This document shows positions 3,085 to 37,344 of a stretch of 48,414 nt of DNA, one piece after another. The DNA comes from Mycoplasmatota bacterium (GTDB lineage Bacteria > Bacillota_I > Bacilli_A > Izemoplasmatales > Izemoplasmataceae): the NCBI GenBank assembly GCA_030600605.1, contig JAUVLT010000006.1, forward strand, positions 1 to 48,414, in the 5' to 3' direction. Position 1 is the first letter of the stretch, and each line of letters starts with the position of its first letter. The position numbers were made by a program, and so were the translations under genes. The notes under the pieces are model-generated. The model was not told where the DNA came from, ran no database searches, and was given only the letters and a program-made list of their open reading frames with translations.

Positions 3085-3717
3085 TTAAAGCATAAATGTA
3101 GCAAATACCGCCATTATTAACAACGTCGCTGCATAAACTGGTTTAATTTCCCATTTAAAATTCAATTTAGAAAAAATTATATTAGTTATGTACGTTAATA
3201 CAACCACCATTAACCCACTAACAATTCCTAAAACAATTAGATAATTAAATCCTAATGCCCAAGTAGATAAATATCGAACAGGAACTCCTGAAACAGCCAT
3301 AAAACCAAACATGTAAAATACAAATACACTTCTCCAACCAATACTTGCAGTTAAAGCTGCTCCGATATTATGAGTAATTTTATCACTAGTTAAATATGTT
3401 ACTACAGCTACTACAAGAAATGATTCTATGATAATAGCCATCATTGGATTGAATGTTTTTCCAACACTAATAGCAGGAAGCAAAAAGTCAATTGATTTCA
3501 CCATAGCAGCTAATAATCCAATGTATAATAGTGCAACTCTAGAATTTGTTTTATTGTAAGCTCTTATCAATATTACAGTAGCGATAGGAAACATGATTGT
3601 TCCAGAGATTATCGCAGGTAAATACTGAAGAGAATACCCGATTGTTGCTTCTAAAAAGCCCCATATTGCACCGTAAAAAATAATTTGTGTAAAAAATGTA
3701 AATTTCTTGTTTTTCAT
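3085..3717 (-). CDS. Polytopic membrane protein in xdh operon, possible transporter component
   Basis: 210 aa with several hydrophobic segments; co-oriented between xdhC and the molybdenum-binding subunit gene. Confidence 0.5.
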   Translation of the reverse strand: MKNKKFTFFTQIIFYGAIWGFLEATIGYSLQYLPAIISGTIMFPIATVILIRAYNKTNSRVALLYIGLLAAMVKSIDFLLPAISVGKTFNPMMAIIIESFLVVAVVTYLTSDKITHNIGAALTASIGWRSVFVFYMFGFMAVSGVPVRYLSTWALGFNYLIVLGIVSGLMVVVLTYITNIIFSKLNFKWEIKPVYAATLLIMAVFATFML

Positions 3718-3719
3718 AA

Positions 3720-6035
3720 TTAATTTTCTCCTTTTTCTTTTTCTTTTATTGCCATAAGTATTTTTTCAGCAGTAATTGGTAATGTTGTAATTCTTACACC
3801 AACTGCGTTGTATACTGCATTAGCTAAAGCTGCGGGTGGAGTATCAATTCCGATTTCTCCAACACTTTTAGCTCCATAAGGACCAGATTTTTCATAACTA
3901 TCAGCAAACTCTGTTGTTAGTTTATGAATTTCACGACGAGTTGGAATTCGATAATTCATTAAATCGTTTGTAACTAATTTCCCTTTTTTTGTATAAAGAA
4001 CCTCTTCATACATTGCCATTCCAATCCCCTGTACAATTCCACCTTCAACTTGCCCTCTAGCAAGCATTGGGTTAATTGTAGTACCACAATCAACTATACT
4101 TATATAATCAATTATATCTACTTCACCAGTTTCTTTGTCAACATCAATTTCGACAAATCCTGCCATAAATGGTGGTGGTGATTTAGTTCCATAATAACTA
4201 CTTGTAACTTGTAATTGTTTTTGATCTTCATTATAAAATAATCGATTAGATAAATCCTTAAGTGTTATTTCTTTATCTTTTGTTTTTAAAACAACCCCAT
4301 CATACTCAATATCTTCAACCTTAACATCGAATACTTTCGCTGCTTCATCGATAATTAATTGTCGCATTTCTTTTCCTGCTTTTAAGACAGCATTTCCTGA
4401 AACATATGTTGTACTCGATGCATAAGCTCCTGTATCGTAAGGCGTTAAATCTGTGTCTGATGAATAAACAATGACTTTATCTAATGTTGTTCCTAGTGCT
4501 TCTGCAGCTATTTGAGCTAAGATAGTATCACTACCTTGGCCAATGTCTGTTGCCCCTATCAATAGATTATAAAATCCATCATCATTAAGTTTTATTGTAG
4601 CTGCTGCCATATCAATATATGGTATTCCTGACCCTTGCATCGCAATTGCCATTCCGACGCCTTTTACCTTTGAGTTACCTAGTTCTTTTCTAGGAAATAG
4701 TTCTTTCCATTTAACTAACTCTGCTCCTCTTTTTACACAATACTCAAGTTTACATGATTCCATAAACATTTCAATACCTTCAGTTCCTTCACCCATAATT
4801 TTAAAAATTGGTGAAGTTTCTGTTTCTCTAATCATGTTCTTTTGTCTAAATTTAACAGGATCAATATTTAATTTATGACAAAGCATATCGATTGATGATT
4901 CTAATGCGAAGTTACCTTGAACTGCTCCATACCCTCGATAAGCTCCAGCTGGTGTGTGGTTTGTATAAACGACATTACCATGAAATCGAACAGAATCTAC
5001 TTTGTTATAAAGTGGGAACACTTTAGCTGCTGCTACCATAAAGACTGTTAAAGCATGCTCACCATAAGCTCCCGTATCAGAAATAACAAAACAATCAATA
5101 GCTTTTAATACTCCATCTTTTGTTGCTCCTAGTTTTATATCAAACCGCATAGGATGTCTTGAATAACTTGATTCAAATACTTCTTTTCTTGTATATATCA
5201 TTTTTGAAGGTTTACCAGTTTTTATAGTAACTGTTGAAACTAACAATTCACCATGAATTGCTTGCTTTCCTCCAAAGCCCCCACCAACACGCGGTTTAAT
5301 AATGCGAATTTTACTAAGAGGATAATCTAGTGCTTGGGAAATAATTCTTCTAATATGAATAGGTGTTTGAGTTGAAGAATATATCATTAAACGACCTTGA
5401 TAATCCATACGAGCATTTACGTTATGAGGTTCAAGCATCACATGAGCCTGTGCTTGAGTATAAAAACTTTGTTCAATAACAACCTCAGATTCTTCTAATG
5501 ATTTTGATACGTCTCCAACATGCATGTGATAAGATGCTGCTAAATTCTTTTTAGGGTTAAAACCAATTGGAAACATTTCATGAATTTCTGGTTCCATATG
5601 CACTAATACTTCATTTTCAAAAGCTGTTTCAAAATCAAGTACTGGCTCTAATACTTCATATTCAATATCAATCAGCTTTAAAGCTTTGATTGCTATTTTT
5701 TCAGTTAATGCTGCAACTGCTGCAGCTTCATCACCAATATATCTCACATAATTATCTAAGACAAATTTATCATGAGGAGAAGGTTCAGGATATCCTTGAC
5801 CTGCTCTTGTAAATGGTCTTCTTTCGAAATCCTTGTATGTTAATACTAGTTCTACTCCTTCTAAAGCTTCTGCTTTAGAAGTATCAATTTTAACAATTTT
5901 TGCATAAGGATGAGGACTTCTTAATACTTTAACAATTAAAGAATTGGGTTCAGCTAAATCATCAGTATAAGCTTTTTTTCCCATCATTAATCCTTTTCCA
6001 TCAATCGATGGAAGTGCTTGATTAACTACTTTCAT
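3720..6035 (-). CDS. Xanthine dehydrogenase-family molybdenum-binding subunit
   Basis: 771 aa; PRVGGGFGGKQ, GAYRGYGAVQGNFALES, GATDIGQGSDTILAQIAAEALG, KSVGEIGIDTPPAALANAV. Confidence 0.92.
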   Translation of the reverse strand: MKVVNQALPSIDGKGLMMGKKAYTDDLAEPNSLIVKVLRSPHPYAKIVKIDTSKAEALEGVELVLTYKDFERRPFTRAGQGYPEPSPHDKFVLDNYVRYIGDEAAAVAALTEKIAIKALKLIDIEYEVLEPVLDFETAFENEVLVHMEPEIHEMFPIGFNPKKNLAASYHMHVGDVSKSLEESEVVIEQSFYTQAQAHVMLEPHNVNARMDYQGRLMIYSSTQTPIHIRRIISQALDYPLSKIRIIKPRVGGGFGGKQAIHGELLVSTVTIKTGKPSKMIYTRKEVFESSYSRHPMRFDIKLGATKDGVLKAIDCFVISDTGAYGEHALTVFMVAAAKVFPLYNKVDSVRFHGNVVYTNHTPAGAYRGYGAVQGNFALESSIDMLCHKLNIDPVKFRQKNMIRETETSPIFKIMGEGTEGIEMFMESCKLEYCVKRGAELVKWKELFPRKELGNSKVKGVGMAIAMQGSGIPYIDMAAATIKLNDDGFYNLLIGATDIGQGSDTILAQIAAEALGTTLDKVIVYSSDTDLTPYDTGAYASSTTYVSGNAVLKAGKEMRQLIIDEAAKVFDVKVEDIEYDGVVLKTKDKEITLKDLSNRLFYNEDQKQLQVTSSYYGTKSPPPFMAGFVEIDVDKETGEVDIIDYISIVDCGTTINPMLARGQVEGGIVQGIGMAMYEEVLYTKKGKLVTNDLMNYRIPTRREIHKLTTEFADSYEKSGPYGAKSVGEIGIDTPPAALANAVYNAVGVRITTLPITAEKILMAIKEKEKGEN

Positions 6036-30337: not shown

Positions 30338-30604
30338 TCACATTCTCTTTAATATATCGTGATGACCTATATCTAACATTAAAATTAAATTATCATTTTG
30401 ATAAGTCCAAATCACTCTTATTGACATATTTATACTTGACTCAAACAATATTTTACTACCTTTAATCTTTTTTGATCGAAGACTTGGATGTTTATGATTT
30501 TCTACAAATATTGTTAATTTCTTATAGAATATTTTCTTTTCTTGCTCTTGTAACTTAGAAAAAGACTTTTTGAATCTACTTGAAAATAGTAATTCATATT
30601 TCAT
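30338..30604 (-). CDS. RelE/ParE-superfamily toxin-like protein
   Basis: 88 aa: FSSRFKKSFSKLQEQEKKIFYKKLTIFVENHKHPSLRSKKIKGSKILFESSINMSIRVIWTYQNDNLILMLDIGHHD. Confidence 0.7.
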   Translation of the reverse strand: MKYELLFSSRFKKSFSKLQEQEKKIFYKKLTIFVENHKHPSLRSKKIKGSKILFESSINMSIRVIWTYQNDNLILMLDIGHHDILKRM

Positions 30605-30900
30605 TACTTTTTCTCGTTTTCTTTTACATAATTATCTTCATCCGGTTCTTCAAGATAATTGATGGCTTCTTCTACAGATTTAAATGGACCAACATTATAC
30701 TCAGTTGATTCTTCATTTATTCTCATAACAGTATCCTCTAATTTCTTAATATAGGATTTTGAATATACTGCAACAGGTTCGATGACAATCAGACCATCTT
30801 TTACTGAAATATCAAGATGATCCCCCTCATTAAGATTTAACTCAGTGACAATTTCTTTAGGTATTGTAACTTGTGATTTTTTTCTTAACTCAATAATCAT
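30604..30900 (-). CDS. AbrB/MazE-like swapped-hairpin antitoxin
   Basis: IELRKKSQVTIPKEIVTELNLNEGDHLDISVKDGLIVIEP; overlaps toxin start. Confidence 0.8.
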   Translation of the reverse strand: MIIELRKKSQVTIPKEIVTELNLNEGDHLDISVKDGLIVIEPVAVYSKSYIKKLEDTVMRINEESTEYNVGPFKSVEEAINYLEEPDEDNYVKENEKK

Positions 30901-31368: not shown

Positions 31369-33753
31369 CTAAATGTTATTCCCTTTGATAGTATCTATTA
31401 AAGTAAGTGATTTCATTTTTTTGTATGGATTCAATATAGAAATCAAAGTAAAACCAACTGAACTAATTCCTAGAAGGATTACCATCCTTAAATCAAACTT
31501 AATAATCGAAAGTTTATCATCACCACTTGATACTAATAAATTTAAAAAATGAATTCCAATTGGCTGTAGTAATACTGCTCCAATGAAAGCTATTGTTGTT
31601 ATCAACATAATTTCAAGTATAAATAATTTGAATATTTGTTGCTGTTTGATTCCTAAAGATCTAAATAATCCAATTTCTTTCTTTTTATTCATTATATCTC
31701 TTGAAAGTAGATTGTTAAACAGTAACACTGAAAATACAATAAATAGTCCACTTACTGAAAATGCAATTACTGACAATATATAACCATCCTCGTCCATATA
31801 TTTTATAATACTATTTGATAAATGCGATTCATAGAAATAACCATTTTCTCTAATTACTCTTAATGCATTTTCATTTAATAATGAATTATCTGTAATTGGT
31901 ATTATAAGTGAAAAGTTGTTCTTAAATCCCTCATTATATATTGAACTATCAATATACATATTAGACACAGGATGATCTGTATTAACAATTCCCTTTATCA
32001 AAAATTCTCTTGTATTTATATTAAAAGAATCCCCATTGTTAAGATACATCTGTGACTTGGTTTCAAATGCTATAGTAATGCTTTCACCTATAATATGTGA
32101 TGTTATTTCTTCTTCATTCAAAGCCCAATACGAGATGAATTCCTCATAACTATTTAAGTCATAATTAGAATCATCTAAAAGGAGTTCAAATAGCATATAT
32201 TTTGATATATATAAGTCATTAGTATTTTGAGTTGTTTCACTAAAAGTAGTTAACATGTCAATTCCTATTGAATTTCTTGGATATAGTTTCCCACTAATAG
32301 ATCTATTGTCATTTGAACTATCAACAACACCATTTAACCCAATATTACTTAATGAAAAATCAAAAGATTCTGAGATATATGCTACAGAATAAAATTCATC
32401 TATCTTATAGTTTAATTCATTCTTGTCGTTTTCAGAAAAATCCTCAGAATACATATAATAATTATTACCTTCTAACATACTAGAGTGTTTTAAATAATCC
32501 GTCTTAAATATACCAATAATAATTAGCTCAGTACTAGGTATGTTTTTATTTAAAACACTTTCAATATTTGTTCCGTCTATAATTTCATTCTGTAATAGAC
32601 TCTCAGCATAATAATCTGATACAATAATTTCATTATTAAATACCGGCAAATTCCCCGCTAATAATTCAACATCTTGATTTATATTCATAAAAGCATTTAT
32701 TGTTGGCTTATAATTAACGTCCATAAAGGGTTTTCCTGAATTGTCGTATAAATGTAAAGAGAAGTCGTTATGAGTTACTCGTACACTGCTACTTATATTT
32801 TCCTGCCATTCTGAAAAATCTTCACCGTCGTAATATTCATTACCTGGTGATTTAATAAAAACATATTCCATCCCAGTAGAAATGAAAGTATCACTTGCAA
32901 TTGAAAACTCATTTGTAAATAATGTCGAAAACCCAAGTCCTACCATAAATAGAGTAATCATTAATAAAAATGAATACTGGATAATTTTGAAAACTTTTCT
33001 TTTAAAAAGACCAATGACCAGACGGAATAGTTGATGATTCTTAAGTTTTAATGATGTTCCTCCAATTATCTTCTTCCCAATTACTTGTGTATTATTTAGA
33101 TGTTTAGTATTATTAAAAATATTCATATTCTTTAATGTAAATATTTCATCACTGTATGTCTTTGCATTTTCTTTGTCATGAGTAATCATAAATACAAGTT
33201 TTTCTCTTGAGACCTCTTTTAGCGTTTTGAGCACCGTTATTGCACTCTCTTCATCTAAACTTCCAGTAGGTTCATCAACTAGCAATACTTTCGAATCCTT
33301 TAATAATGCCCGAATAATTGCAATACGCTGTTTCTCACCACCAGATAATTCATGTGGGTATTTGTCAATTTTATCTTCTAGTCCAAACTTTCTCAGTTTA
33401 TTCAATACTAGCTCATAATTATCATTTTTCATTACGAAATTTAAGTTCTCATAAATATTAAAATCTTCTATAAGATTATCTTCTTGAAAAATAAATGAAA
33501 TATACTGACTTCTTAAGATATCCCAGTCAGAATCATTTAAATCACTATACTTAATACCCTGAAGTAAAATTTCTCCATTATCAAACGTATCTAATCCACC
33601 AAGTAAATTTAGAAAAGTTGTTTTTCCACTTCCTGATTTTCCAATTAGAGAAATAAATCCCTTTTTTGGTAAGTTTAAATCTATATCTTTTAAAACAACA
33701 ACATCTCCACTCTTAGAGCTGTAGGTTTTTGATAGTTTTTTTATTTGTATCAT
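31369..33753 (-). CDS. Fused ABC transporter ATPase + FtsX-type permease
   Basis: LIGKSGSGKTTFLNLLGGLD Walker A; HELSGGEKQRIAIIRALLKDSKVLLVDEPTGSLD; C-terminal permease KKEIGLFRSLGIKQQQIFKLFILE; start taken at MIQIKKL. Confidence 0.88.
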   Translation of the reverse strand: MIQIKKLSKTYSSKSGDVVVLKDIDLNLPKKGFISLIGKSGSGKTTFLNLLGGLDTFDNGEILLQGIKYSDLNDSDWDILRSQYISFIFQEDNLIEDFNIYENLNFVMKNDNYELVLNKLRKFGLEDKIDKYPHELSGGEKQRIAIIRALLKDSKVLLVDEPTGSLDEESAITVLKTLKEVSREKLVFMITHDKENAKTYSDEIFTLKNMNIFNNTKHLNNTQVIGKKIIGGTSLKLKNHQLFRLVIGLFKRKVFKIIQYSFLLMITLFMVGLGFSTLFTNEFSIASDTFISTGMEYVFIKSPGNEYYDGEDFSEWQENISSSVRVTHNDFSLHLYDNSGKPFMDVNYKPTINAFMNINQDVELLAGNLPVFNNEIIVSDYYAESLLQNEIIDGTNIESVLNKNIPSTELIIIGIFKTDYLKHSSMLEGNNYYMYSEDFSENDKNELNYKIDEFYSVAYISESFDFSLSNIGLNGVVDSSNDNRSISGKLYPRNSIGIDMLTTFSETTQNTNDLYISKYMLFELLLDDSNYDLNSYEEFISYWALNEEEITSHIIGESITIAFETKSQMYLNNGDSFNINTREFLIKGIVNTDHPVSNMYIDSSIYNEGFKNNFSLIIPITDNSLLNENALRVIRENGYFYESHLSNSIIKYMDEDGYILSVIAFSVSGLFIVFSVLLFNNLLSRDIMNKKKEIGLFRSLGIKQQQIFKLFILEIMLITTIAFIGAVLLQPIGIHFLNLLVSSGDDKLSIIKFDLRMVILLGISSVGFTLISILNPYKKMKSLTLIDTIKGNNI

Positions 33754-33837
33754 ATATGTTCCCCCTCTATGCAACTATGTAAATTATACCATAAAAATAT
33801 CGAGATACCATACTCATTATTATCAATAATTGATTAA

Positions 33838-33877: not shown

Positions 33878-34330
33878 CTAAGAAATTGCCCACCATTTTA
33901 CGTCTAGATAAGTACTACTTCCAAACCAATTAGATGGATTTTGAACTTTAAGTCTGTATGTATAACCAGCATATATTGGTGTTACAATATCCACTATACC
34001 ACCGGTTCCTGCTGATGATGAAACGCGTTTTACCTCTTGCCAATTACCTGAATGATACACTTCTAAAATATAATTTACATTGACACTGTTACTTTTGTAA
34101 TTAATCTTTACTTTAACAAAATTATGAGCTAAAAACATGTCAATTTCTGTTTCGTCTGTGTTCCCATTATAGCTATAGTATCCCTCAACCAACCAAGTTT
34201 CTCCATCAGAGATTTTTTCTGTATCCATCATGTCAATATATGGTGATTCTACTGCTGCAGCAACACTTTGCACTGACAACATCATTAACCCTACGACCAT
34301 AATTAATCCTAAACTTAGCATTTTTTTCAT
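33878..34330 (-). CDS. Small secreted protein of unknown function (signal peptide)
   Basis: Start re-assigned to MKKMLSLGLIMVVGLMMLSVQSVAAA (SD gaagggggtg); mature part is polar and rich in Trp/Tyr. Confidence 0.75.
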   Translation of the reverse strand: MKKMLSLGLIMVVGLMMLSVQSVAAAVESPYIDMMDTEKISDGETWLVEGYYSYNGNTDETEIDMFLAHNFVKVKINYKSNSVNVNYILEVYHSGNWQEVKRVSSSAGTGGIVDIVTPIYAGYTYRLKVQNPSNWFGSSTYLDVKWWAIS

Positions 34331-34378
34331 TTTTTCACCCCCTTCCCAAAAATAGAATATAATTTCTATAGTGGTTTT

Positions 34379-34404
34379 ACCACAGCACATATGTCATATA
34401 TTTA
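34379..34404 (-). promoter_or_regulatory. 26-bp operator-like sequence upstream of the secreted-protein gene
   Basis: Minus strand TAAATATATGACATATGTGCTGTGGT, identical to 35340-35365 on plus; 48 nt before the ATG. Confidence 0.8.
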
Positions 34405-34418
34405 AAAACAACAAACAA

Positions 34419-35330
34419 TTAACCTGTTTGTTGTTTTAATTTTTCTAAATAGAAATCTCTTGCATTTTTCATAGTATCTCTTAATATTGTTTCTTCAAAC
34501 TTTGTCCTTTTCTCTGCTACAAGCATATTTACAATTTTGATTGTATTAAACAATTCACTCTCAAAATCAATAGTATTCCCTAACTTATAGTGTGCTAAAG
34601 CTTTATAATAATAAAAATACTCTAATAAGTATAAAGTGAATTTTCTTCTACAATAAGCTATTGCTTCGCCTGAACTTTCAATTACTTCTTCAAGCCTTTT
34701 AAGTCTGCCTAGATTCTTAATTATCCAAAAATATATTTGAGAGTTATAAAGTCTATTTCCAGATGTGAATATTTTCTTTTCCTTATTCAGAAATAATATT
34801 CTATTTAGAATAAGTTCACGATCATTATCACTATATTCCATTATTAACCCTAACATATACAATTCAATATCATGTAAAAAATCAAGTTTAATTATTTTAT
34901 CAAATACTATAGTGTTTTTCAATACAAATATCAATTCTCTTTTTGAGATTACATTTGTGTAAAAATCATACAATGTTTTTCCTAATGACATGAATTTTTT
35001 ATTCTCTTTATCCTTAATAATCATTTTTGATAAAAGACTAAACAATACTTGAGCCTCATCTAATTTCTTATTGATTACACAATTAAAGTATTGTTGTACT
35101 TGTTTATTCTCTTTTTCTGTATCTACAATAAATTTTTCTATCAATCTATCAATCGAAATATTCAACTTCTTCGATAATTTTAATACAATATCAAATGGTG
35201 GTTCTGATTCTCCATATAAATACCTATAATACTGTCTTTGTGAAATAACATCATGTAAATATTCTTCTTGATTAATATTTCGATCATACCTTAAACTATC
35301 CATAAAGTTTAATAATCTTACAATATCCAT
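34419..35330 (-). CDS. RRNPP/Rgg-like peptide-responsive transcriptional regulator (HTH + helical repeat domain)
   Basis: ISQRQYYRYLYGESEPPFDIVLKLSKKLNISIDRLIEKF HTH; remaining about 240 aa all-helical TPR-like; SD aggaggg. Confidence 0.75.
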   Translation of the reverse strand: MDIVRLLNFMDSLRYDRNINQEEYLHDVISQRQYYRYLYGESEPPFDIVLKLSKKLNISIDRLIEKFIVDTEKENKQVQQYFNCVINKKLDEAQVLFSLLSKMIIKDKENKKFMSLGKTLYDFYTNVISKRELIFVLKNTIVFDKIIKLDFLHDIELYMLGLIMEYSDNDRELILNRILFLNKEKKIFTSGNRLYNSQIYFWIIKNLGRLKRLEEVIESSGEAIAYCRRKFTLYLLEYFYYYKALAHYKLGNTIDFESELFNTIKIVNMLVAEKRTKFEETILRDTMKNARDFYLEKLKQQTG

Positions 35331-35339
35331 GATCCCTCC

Positions 35340-35365
35340 TAAATATATGACATATGTGCTGTGGT
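35340..35365 (+). promoter_or_regulatory. 26-bp operator-like sequence upstream of the pro-peptide gene
   Basis: TAAATATATGACATATGTGCTGTGGT, perfect inverted copy of 34379-34404; 46 nt before the ATG. Confidence 0.8.
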
Positions 35366-35411
35366 TTAATCCCTTCCGAAAAATTATTATGAAGTTGAAG
35401 GAGGGGATGAA

Positions 35412-35555
35412 ATGAAAAAATATGTGTTAGTTTTCTGTCTTCTGTTTATATTTTCAATAATGAGTACTTATTCAACTTCTGCTTACAACAACTTGAATAC
35501 AGTACAGTATATTGATTATGAAGATGAAGATATACCTGAATTAGTAAACTTATAA
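35412..35555 (+). CDS. Unannotated 47-aa secreted pro-peptide, candidate signalling pheromone precursor
   Basis: MKKYVLVFCLLFIFSIMSTYSTSAYNNLNTVQYIDYEDEDIPELVNL; SD gaaggagggg; absent from the ORF track (below length cut-off). Confidence 0.7.
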   Translation: MKKYVLVFCLLFIFSIMSTYSTSAYNNLNTVQYIDYEDEDIPELVNL

Positions 35556-35568
35556 GGTGGTGATTATT

Positions 35569-35844
35569 TTGAGTATTCAGCAATTTGAGATTGAAGTAAA
35601 CGGTATAATTGGGACTATAACAAATTATACTAAAAATCCATATATTGTTGGTTATACAAACTGTTTAAGAAAATATGTGAACGAAAATGAAAAAGATATG
35701 GTTCTTTTGATAATTAAAAAACTTATTGTATGGTATACAATGAATATAGATAGTATATTAAGTAATGAATACATAGCCAATAAATCTGAGCATATTTCAA
35801 CTAAAGAATTACTAGAGCTCACGTTTAAAGAGTTATCAAATTAG
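35569..35844 (+). CDS. Small hypothetical protein, likely co-transcribed with the pro-peptide
   Basis: Probable TTG start (SIQQFEIEVNGIIGTI...) with SD aaggtggtga; the ORF track uses GTG at 35557. Confidence 0.5.
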   Translation: MSIQQFEIEVNGIIGTITNYTKNPYIVGYTNCLRKYVNENEKDMVLLIIKKLIVWYTMNIDSILSNEYIANKSEHISTKELLELTFKELSN

Positions 35845-35872
35845 ACAATATACTTTCAAGTAAAAAAATAAT

Positions 35873-35895
35873 TAAACGCTTCTTAGCGTTTTTTT
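35873..35895 (+). terminator. Intrinsic terminator of the peptide operon
   Basis: aaacgcttcttagcgttttttt. Confidence 0.7.
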
Positions 35896-36228
35896 ATATT
35901 TTTAAAATTGATTTATCGAGTAGACTATTTCCATCAAATTCATCACCTTGATATTATTTGTTTATATCTTAGGGTGATTCTATAACCCTAACATTCTTAA
36001 ACTCAGCCATTTGACATATTGATAATCCCACAACCTATTCAGAATGGCTCAAATTAATTTCAGTCCTTGCTCAATTGTCTATTAAAATTTATTATTAATT
36101 TTATTTGCTCATAGTCTTTACATCCTTAATTTATTATATCATATATCTAAGAAGGGAAAATATTAAGTTAGTAATTTTATTATCTTACCTTTCGTGTATA
36201 ATGACTTCTAAAATGAAAGGTGGTAATT

Positions 36229-37344
36229 ATGAATTACACAAGCAAAGAAAAACAATTTATTGTTAACAAGTATTACGAAGGAATTCCTGCTTCTAATATA
36301 GCTAGAGAACATAACATCTCAAGATCTACAATTTATAATTGGATTACTGATTTCAAGAAAATACCCATTAATGAAATGAACATTAGTAAGAATCAACTTC
36401 ATAAAGAAAAAATGAAGCTTGAAAGATTAGAAAGAGAAAACAACATCTTCAATTATGTGATTAAAGAGTTAAATCTATCCAAAAATAAAAAAATTGAATT
36501 TGCTACTTCATTGGATAATGATTATCCCATTCATACTATATGTAGAGTCTTAGATTTACATAGAGCTACTTACTATCATCATAAATATCGAAAGCCTAAA
36601 GTTAAAACAATAGAACTAGATGATCAAATTTATAAGCCCATTATCAAGAAGATTTTCGATAATTCAAAAGGTAGACTAGGTGGAAGGAAAATTAGAAAGA
36701 TAATGATTAAGGATGGATATGAAATTAGTGAGAAAAGAATCTTACGATTAATGAGAGAAATGAAATTAATAGTCAATCAAAAAAGTGATGACTATAATGA
36801 TGCTCATAAGAGAAAATATTTCTATAAACCTAATATTATAAGTAAACTAGATTCAAATACTACACTTAATATGATTTGGGTAAGTGATATTACATATATT
36901 AAAGTGAATTCTGAGCACTACTATTTACATGTGGTTATTGATTTATATTCAAGATTCATTATTGATTACTCTTTAGAAAATCATATGGAATCTACAATTA
37001 TGGTTGAGTTGTTTAAGAGAGCTTATACTAAAAGAAAAAATCCTATAAATCTAGTATTTCACAGTGATCAGGGAGGACAATACAAGTCAAAAATATTTAG
37101 ACAAACTTTAAAAGAATATAATATTACTCAGTCCTTTTCAAAAACTGGATGTCCATATGATAATGCGGTATGCGAAAGCACATTTGCTAGTTTAAAGAAA
37201 GAAGAAATTTATAGATTTATATATAAAGATTTCGATGAATTAGAAGTTGCAATTTATGAATATATTCATTACTTCAATTTCAGTCGTCCACATGCTTCAC
37301 TTAATTATATGACTCCAAATGAATATGAGAATGCCGCTAATTAA
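36229..37344 (+). CDS. IS3-family (IS150-like) transposase, single uninterrupted ORF
   Basis: HTH NIAREHNISRSTIYNWI; HTH_21-like domain; DDE core MIWVSDITYI, HVVIDLYSRFI, VFHSDQGGQYKS, YDNAVCESTFASLKKEEI. Confidence 0.9.
   Translation: MNYTSKEKQFIVNKYYEGIPASNIAREHNISRSTIYNWITDFKKIPINEMNISKNQLHKEKMKLERLERENNIFNYVIKELNLSKNKKIEFATSLDNDYPIHTICRVLDLHRATYYHHKYRKPKVKTIELDDQIYKPIIKKIFDNSKGRLGGRKIRKIMIKDGYEISEKRILRLMREMKLIVNQKSDDYNDAHKRKYFYKPNIISKLDSNTTLNMIWVSDITYIKVNSEHYYLHVVIDLYSRFIIDYSLENHMESTIMVELFKRAYTKRKNPINLVFHSDQGGQYKSKIFRQTLKEYNITQSFSKTGCPYDNAVCESTFASLKKEEIYRFIYKDFDELEVAIYEYIHYFNFSRPHASLNYMTPNEYENAAN

Follow-up and report, generated by a model that had tools for sequence, protein, structure and literature searches.

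In the PlcR-PapR system of the Bacillus cereus group, the PapR peptide is ADLPFEF and the PlcR box reads TATGnAnnnnTnCATA. The mature pheromones known from RRNPP systems have a length of 5-10 aa (PMC11343458). Those of the Rgg-SHP and ComR-ComS systems of streptococci are short hydrophobic peptides, which leave the cell via PptAB and for which no duplication was found (PMC9765709). Propeptides with several copies, up to six, were described for NprR, Rap-Phr, AimR and PlcR systems (PMC9765709; PMC11343458). The RRNPP_detector survey covered complete Firmicutes genomes and viral genomes, using TPR HMM matches for the receptors and propeptides of 10-100 aa (PMC10075063). No Mollicutes, Tenericutes or Izemoplasma are named in the text of that paper (PMC10075063), and the same was seen for RRNPP surveys. 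Our searches of the open-licence literature (RRNPP with Tenericutes, PlcR with Acholeplasma) revealed no description of RRNPP signalling in Mycoplasmatota/Izemoplasmatales. Since only open-licence literature was searched, an undetected description is possible.

Gene organization and distribution of the locus

The window, i.e. the whole analyzed stretch of DNA with 48,414 nucleotides, is contig C63 of a 1.5-Mb genome. We interpret the locus described here as an RRNPP-kind peptide quorum-sensing cassette with a full loop of export, re-import and activation, and estimate the probability of this reading at about 0.87. An RRNPP interpretation had already been put forward in an initial annotation and is supported and largely upheld by the analysis. 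The three genes on which it was built, a regulator, a small ORF with a good Shine-Dalgarno sequence and a gene for a secreted protein, are all present where it had placed them. The locus consists of the following genes and a terminator:

34419..35330, minus strand: RRNPP-type receptor and probable transcriptional activator, 303 aa, with an XRE HTH and a helical (TPR-like) repeat domain according to the predicted fold
35412..35555, plus strand: pheromone precursor, 47 aa, with a signal peptide and a single C-terminal unit (region IDYEDEDIPELVNL); direct reading
35569..35844, plus strand: third cassette gene, about 91 aa, predicted four-helix protein; listed as an ORF from GTG 35557, whereas TTG 35569 matches the aligned starts
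about 35862..35895, plus strand: intrinsic-terminator-like hairpin (AAACGC TTCTTA GCGTTTTTTT) with a T-run, ending the pheromone operon; direct reading
33878..34330, minus strand: likely regulated output, 150 aa, with a signal peptide and the second receptor box directly upstream

In a class-wide search, the receptor family was found in 63 of 395 genomes. Relatives occur in Candidatus Izemoplasmatales/Izimaplasma, the Mycoplasmatota zrk strains, Haloplasmataceae and Paracholeplasma as well as in Acholeplasma (A. laidlawii, A. oculi, A. equifetale and A. granularum). The genome of Mycoplasmatota bacterium CSMAG_300 is a near-twin, with a receptor that is 98% identical.

In the neighbourhood of the cassette, a transposase ORF with the look of the IS3 family (HTH and integrase-like core) adjoins the pheromone operon at 36220-37344. 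Further away, at 30338-30900 on the minus strand, two adjoining small genes (98 aa and 88 aa) resemble an AbrB/RelE-type toxin-antitoxin pair, judged by eye only.

Receptor

Single-sequence searches told little about the receptor. Only HTH_3 scored above the Pfam cut-off, and no Pfam TPR model matched the window receptor, i.e. the repeats are not visible by sequence HMM alone. Comparison of single sequences to the PDB by phmmer revealed nothing relevant, and Pfam, NCBIfam and PHROGs gave HTH or weak matches only. We therefore turned to a family profile and a structure model. The profile, built from 38 relatives, matches Rgg2, ComR and PlcR chains with E-values from 1e-4 to 6e-3 (PlcR 0.006). 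Within the family, RNPP_C matches one relative (9.9e-11) and RapH_N four. The AlphaFold2 model is all-helical (pLDDT 91.7) and consists of an HTH followed by a helical-repeat fold. Its top match in Foldseek is PlcR in complex with PapR7 and DNA (E 1.6e-7), and further matches are PlcR-PapR (TM 0.64/0.68), PlcR, ComR, Rgg2/Rgg3 and PrgX.

On the basis of this model, the fold of the receptor is the RRNPP fold. With 303 aa, the protein also fulfils the size and domain criterion of RRNPP receptors (250-500 aa, N-terminal HTH except in Rap, TPR-type superhelical domain), with the fold taken from AlphaFold2 and Foldseek. The regulator had initially been termed "RRNPP/Rgg-like". The structure comparison, in which the best matches are RRNPP receptors, bears out the first part of this term, but Rgg as the closest relative has to be given up, since the best structural relative is PlcR. 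The moderate TM-score to PlcR (0.59-0.64) and an identity of 16-17% place the receptor in a distant subfamily.

Weak matches to phage repressor profiles could also suggest a phage-repressor-like or toxin-antitoxin-like HTH protein, beside which the small ORF lies without any relation to it. We regard this as hardly credible, given the RRNPP fold matches and the conserved peptide, boxes and outputs described below. No relative turned up in a search of viral contigs, and a phage-type repressor was rejected on the grounds of this result and of the fold matches.

Some loci carry altered or additional receptors. In the twin genome (G002), the receptor frame is broken (L034, 954-1861) and the gene of the secreted protein contains one in-frame stop (L111, 1953-2402), while the pheromone gene is intact. 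These are either assembly errors, or the strain is a signal producer that no longer responds. At L154 and L157, a paralogous receptor (514-1431 and 2035-2934, respectively) directly adjoins a complete cassette but lacks its own divergent peptide ORF; these extra receptors are possible "eavesdroppers" or partners.

Predicted pheromone precursor and repeat units

The 47-aa ORF follows a good Shine-Dalgarno sequence (AAGGAGGGG) and encodes a KK N-terminus, a hydrophobic core and an A-x-A-like site, a layout which is the same in relatives. By its sequence, the precursor is of the Sec type and not a short hydrophobic peptide of the Rgg type. The ORF does not occur by chance, because it is unchanged in the near-twin genome (L034) and a peptide of the same type is found at the same location in relatives whose receptors are only 43-48% identical. 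By a fixed criterion, a divergent exported-peptide ORF accompanies 53 of the 61 related receptors, compared to a background of 7 of 196 other genes. The pairing of regulator and small ORF, for which a comparative search had been suggested, is therefore widely conserved. In a Haloplasma MAG (L047, 3857-3940), the receptor and a box-like element are conserved, but the precursor ORF ends after 27 codons, before the peptide part.

In the receptor's own clade within the Izemoplasmatales, the signal peptide is followed by a unit of the form [DG]-F-[DE]-[DE]-x-x-x-P-[ED]-[YFLH]-[VI]. The window precursor contains one such unit, IDYEDEDIPELVNL, as does the precursor of L035 (LGFDDDDIPEFINF), and the Acholeplasma precursors have a single copy of a related form, e.g. 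VDFKDVRNPDLGLPYGPVNP. Many relatives encode 3-12 tandem copies of the peptide within one precursor. Examples from single relatives are LDFDDPDLPELVN in six copies, LDFDDEDFPEFIN in ten (with I for L in the first unit), DFDDRDEPEFINI in nine and NIDFDDDDLPELI in eleven, the last array reaching the contig end. L044 has three units with unrelated spacers between them, which delimits the unit as DFDDHHIPEHVTV, and L042 contains three successive small genes in place of one array. Most precursors finish in a complete unit; some relatives have a C-terminal tail. The RRNPP criterion of a neighbouring gene for a small exported propeptide, with the pheromone located in or close to the C-terminus, is fulfilled. 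On the receptor tree, four changes between single-unit and multi-unit states are needed.

For counting silent and replacement changes, the arrays were tiled by a fixed period without sequence selection of units. Tandem units differ by 144 silent and only 6 amino-acid changes, where 28.6 silent changes are expected (P~1e-94). This purifying selection demonstrates that the ORFs are translated in relatives and that the peptide sequence itself is selected, in agreement with the initial annotation. The selected unit comprises about 13-14 aa (IDYEDEDIPELVNL region) and not the 5-10 aa assumed there. Because this is longer than the usual pheromone, further trimming is likely.

Predicted receptor boxes and promoter geometry

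The following elements were identified in the two promoter regions:

35340..35365, plus strand: predicted receptor box of the pheromone promoter, sharing all 26 bp with the second box; no binding data
34379..34404, minus strand: second receptor box, upstream of the secreted-protein gene; predicted at the sequence level only
35385..35390, plus strand: -10 hexamer TATTAT on the pheromone side, 36 nt from the G of GACATAT
34354..34361, minus strand: -10 region upstream of the secreted-protein gene, either TATATT (offset 34) or TATTCT (offset 36)

Both promoter regions have 26 bases in common, TAAATATATGACATATGTGCTGTGGT. For the inner 22-mer, no match is expected in shuffled windows, and the 19-bp core occurs only at these two sites of the 1.5-Mb genome when 3 mismatches are allowed. 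The 26-bp element belongs to a conserved type of box with the consensus GACATATnyGCGCTGT. The pattern RYGACATATVYGCBNTG revealed 44 boxes in 25 of 61 relative genomes and the reversed pattern none; matches inside genes at L093 and L101 are probably due to chance. In 32 of 37 loci, the distance between a box and the receptor start is 12-39 nt (shuffle mean 0.015). Behind the receptor, 25 of 36 loci have a second box at a distance of no more than 400 nt (shuffle mean 0.24). Variant bases are common to both boxes within one species. In the Acholeplasma genomes, wider pattern searches found a palindromic box at the pheromone promoter only, and we therefore claim no regulon in this genus.

In 32 of 55 boxes, a -10 hexamer starts exactly 36 nt from the G of GACATAT, and no other offset averages above a zero score. 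With this geometry, the box covers the -35 position, and TGTTnn is found there in place of TTGACA. The shared operator proposed earlier is thus a conserved box with a fixed promoter geometry in relatives, and a receptor box at both the pheromone and the target promoter, as required for RRNPP systems, is present as far as can be judged without binding data. As the spacing between box and -10 is fixed to the base across very divergent lineages and TGTTnn is found at -35, the promoters appear to be of the activator type. The natural reading of the box is that of a putative class-II activator site, with the effect itself inferred.

In the rival reading, the box-bound receptor is a repressor of both promoters and the peptide lifts the repression, following an Rgg3- or AimR-like logic. 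Peptides inhibit the receptor in some RRNPP members (PMC11343458), and a repressor bound over the -35 region would also block RNA polymerase, so that the position of the box alone cannot fully exclude this. However, we consider repression unlikely, since the base-fixed spacing and the -35 sequence are those of an activator-dependent promoter and the closest fold, PlcR, is an activator.

Likely regulated genes

Behind the second box, the window and its twin encode the secreted 150-aa protein. It shows no Pfam family above the cut-off, and among the 61 genomes homologs were found only in the twin and in strain zrk2 (76% identity), where no strict-pattern box was detected upstream. In the window, the gene is followed by a fused ATPase-FtsX-type ABC transporter (31369-33774, minus strand); an ABC transporter gene likewise follows the homolog in strain zrk2 (L153/L173).

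In most relatives, the genes downstream of the second box encode c-di-GMP enzymes (GGDEF/EAL, HD-GYP), assigned at the family level. One large group has a PAS/GGDEF/EAL or EAL protein and the group nearest to the window an HD-GYP-type (HD_5) protein. Relatives appear to use the peptide system for c-di-GMP control. Further boxes lie upstream of genes for a C39-peptidase ABC exporter, another ABC transporter, secreted proteins and a SLATT_4 protein. The latter gene, which codes for a SMODS/SLOG-associated 2TM effector, was observed in one relative (L082, 778-1323, minus strand). SLATT domains are known from anti-phage defence systems.

With ABC transporters among the box targets, one of them with a C39 peptidase domain, and a secreted protein as output of the window, the exported peptide might also be an effector, e.g. 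a bacteriocin-like or structural repeat, which is merely regulated by the HTH protein and is not its signal. Secreted repeat peptides can indeed be antimicrobial or structural. Nevertheless, most targets found are c-di-GMP enzymes, the regulator has a peptide-receptor fold, paralogous receptors each have their own divergent precursor and the unit is kept intact at the amino-acid level. An effector function is therefore improbable.

Third gene and paralogous cassettes

A third, conserved gene belongs to the peptide operon and is absent from the initial annotation. Judged from the aligned starts, its start codon is probably TTG 35569. The four-helix gene lies behind the pheromone gene in many lineages and is present in 35 of 61 relative genomes. 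The Acholeplasma cassettes and part of family f3 showed no such gene. The AlphaFold2 model of the protein consists of four helices (pLDDT 93.3). A comparison to the PDB gave no significant fold match, and therefore no function was assigned. From its position only, we suspect a modulator of the receptor. The gene is also found beside paralogous receptors, each of which has its own divergent precursor of ~45 aa. These cassettes have their own promoter element, which is often dyad-like, e.g. GGGTCATATATGAACTTTTC.

A second cassette was observed in the window's own genome (G000, contig C20, L108), with a receptor at 3480-4388 (minus strand), a precursor at 4463-4606 (plus strand) and the four-helix gene from 4708 onward. 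Its peptide (...EDHGYGDLPPSLPVGDVTS) and its promoter element differ from those of the window cassette.

A broader proposal is that these loci form an undescribed multi-channel family of three-gene peptide quorum-sensing cassettes (receptor, Sec-exported and often tandem precursor, dedicated four-helix partner), which is widespread in Izemoplasmatales and their Acholeplasma/Haloplasma relatives. Paralogous cassettes would differ in operators and peptides, c-di-GMP turnover would be a usual output and the four-helix protein would represent a functional component not known before. We put this forward tentatively, with slightly less than even confidence. If it is true, the four-helix protein could set a threshold or insulate the receptor from freshly made precursor.

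Proposed signalling loop

In the activation loop that we favour for the window cassette, the signal peptide would direct the export of the 47-aa precursor, and trimming would leave a C-terminal peptide of roughly 7-14 residues, acidic at first and then hydrophobic. This peptide would return to the cell through an oligopeptide permease and be bound by the helical-repeat domain of the receptor. Loaded with the peptide, the receptor would then bind the GACATAT box, which covers the -35 position at two promoters, and activate transcription of (i) the pheromone operon, which amounts to positive feedback, and (ii) the secreted-protein gene. Sec export, processing, re-import, peptide binding, activation and positive feedback are all inferred by analogy; the steps match the established RRNPP scheme (PMC11343458). 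A permease binding protein of the SBP_bac_5 (OppA) type is encoded in the genome (E 1.4e-83), but OppA-like proteins are common and not specific. The absence of an experiment, the moderate TM-score, the low identity, the missing Pfam TPR match and the 13-14-aa unit were counted against the RRNPP reading.

RRNPP signalling seems to be common in free-living marine and sediment relatives of mycoplasmas and is also found in cultivated Acholeplasma. Since the tandem peptides are identical with only silent differences, the signal sequence of each species can be read directly. Receptor-ligand pairs and boxes are readable from genomes and hence testable. Through the link to GGDEF/EAL and HD-GYP proteins, density sensing would be coupled to c-di-GMP in this group.

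Comparison with known systems

The closest resemblance is to PlcR-PapR. Both combine an HTH and helical-repeat receptor, for which PlcR is the best structural match, with a neighbouring Sec-type precursor, which is similarly long and carries its pheromone at the C-terminus. In both, boxes are located upstream of secreted-protein genes and the pheromone gene, and the acidic-hydrophobic peptide has a D-L/I-P core. In contrast, the window family is only 16-17% identical, has a divergent gene order and belongs to a different lineage. Its unit of 13-14 aa is often repeated in tandem, there is an additional third gene (about 91 aa) and the outputs are often c-di-GMP enzymes. Membership of the PlcR-PapR subfamily is therefore not fulfilled, given the box GACATATnyGCGCTGT, the profile E-value of 0.006 and the low identity.

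With Rgg-SHP and ComR-ComS, the family shares a ~300-aa HTH receptor beside a peptide gene with a promoter box, as well as structural matches. However, its precursor carries a signal peptide and frequently contains repeats, and the 47-aa window precursor with its signal-peptide features does not fulfil membership here either. The NprR, Rap-Phr, AimR and PlcR systems with repeated propeptides are alike in their multi-copy pheromone precursors, whereas the window family has up to 12 or so units, which are mostly uninterrupted and identical in amino acids. It also differs in the geometry of the DNA box and in the outputs, and it is not phage-borne. The layout of receptor and adjacent exported propeptide is common to the subfamilies found by RRNPP_detector; measured by the criteria of that tool, the receptors are mostly without TPR matches and many precursors exceed 100 aa. 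We therefore file the locus as a new subfamily, which is RRNPP by fold and layout and lies outside the PlcR, Rgg and ComR subfamilies.
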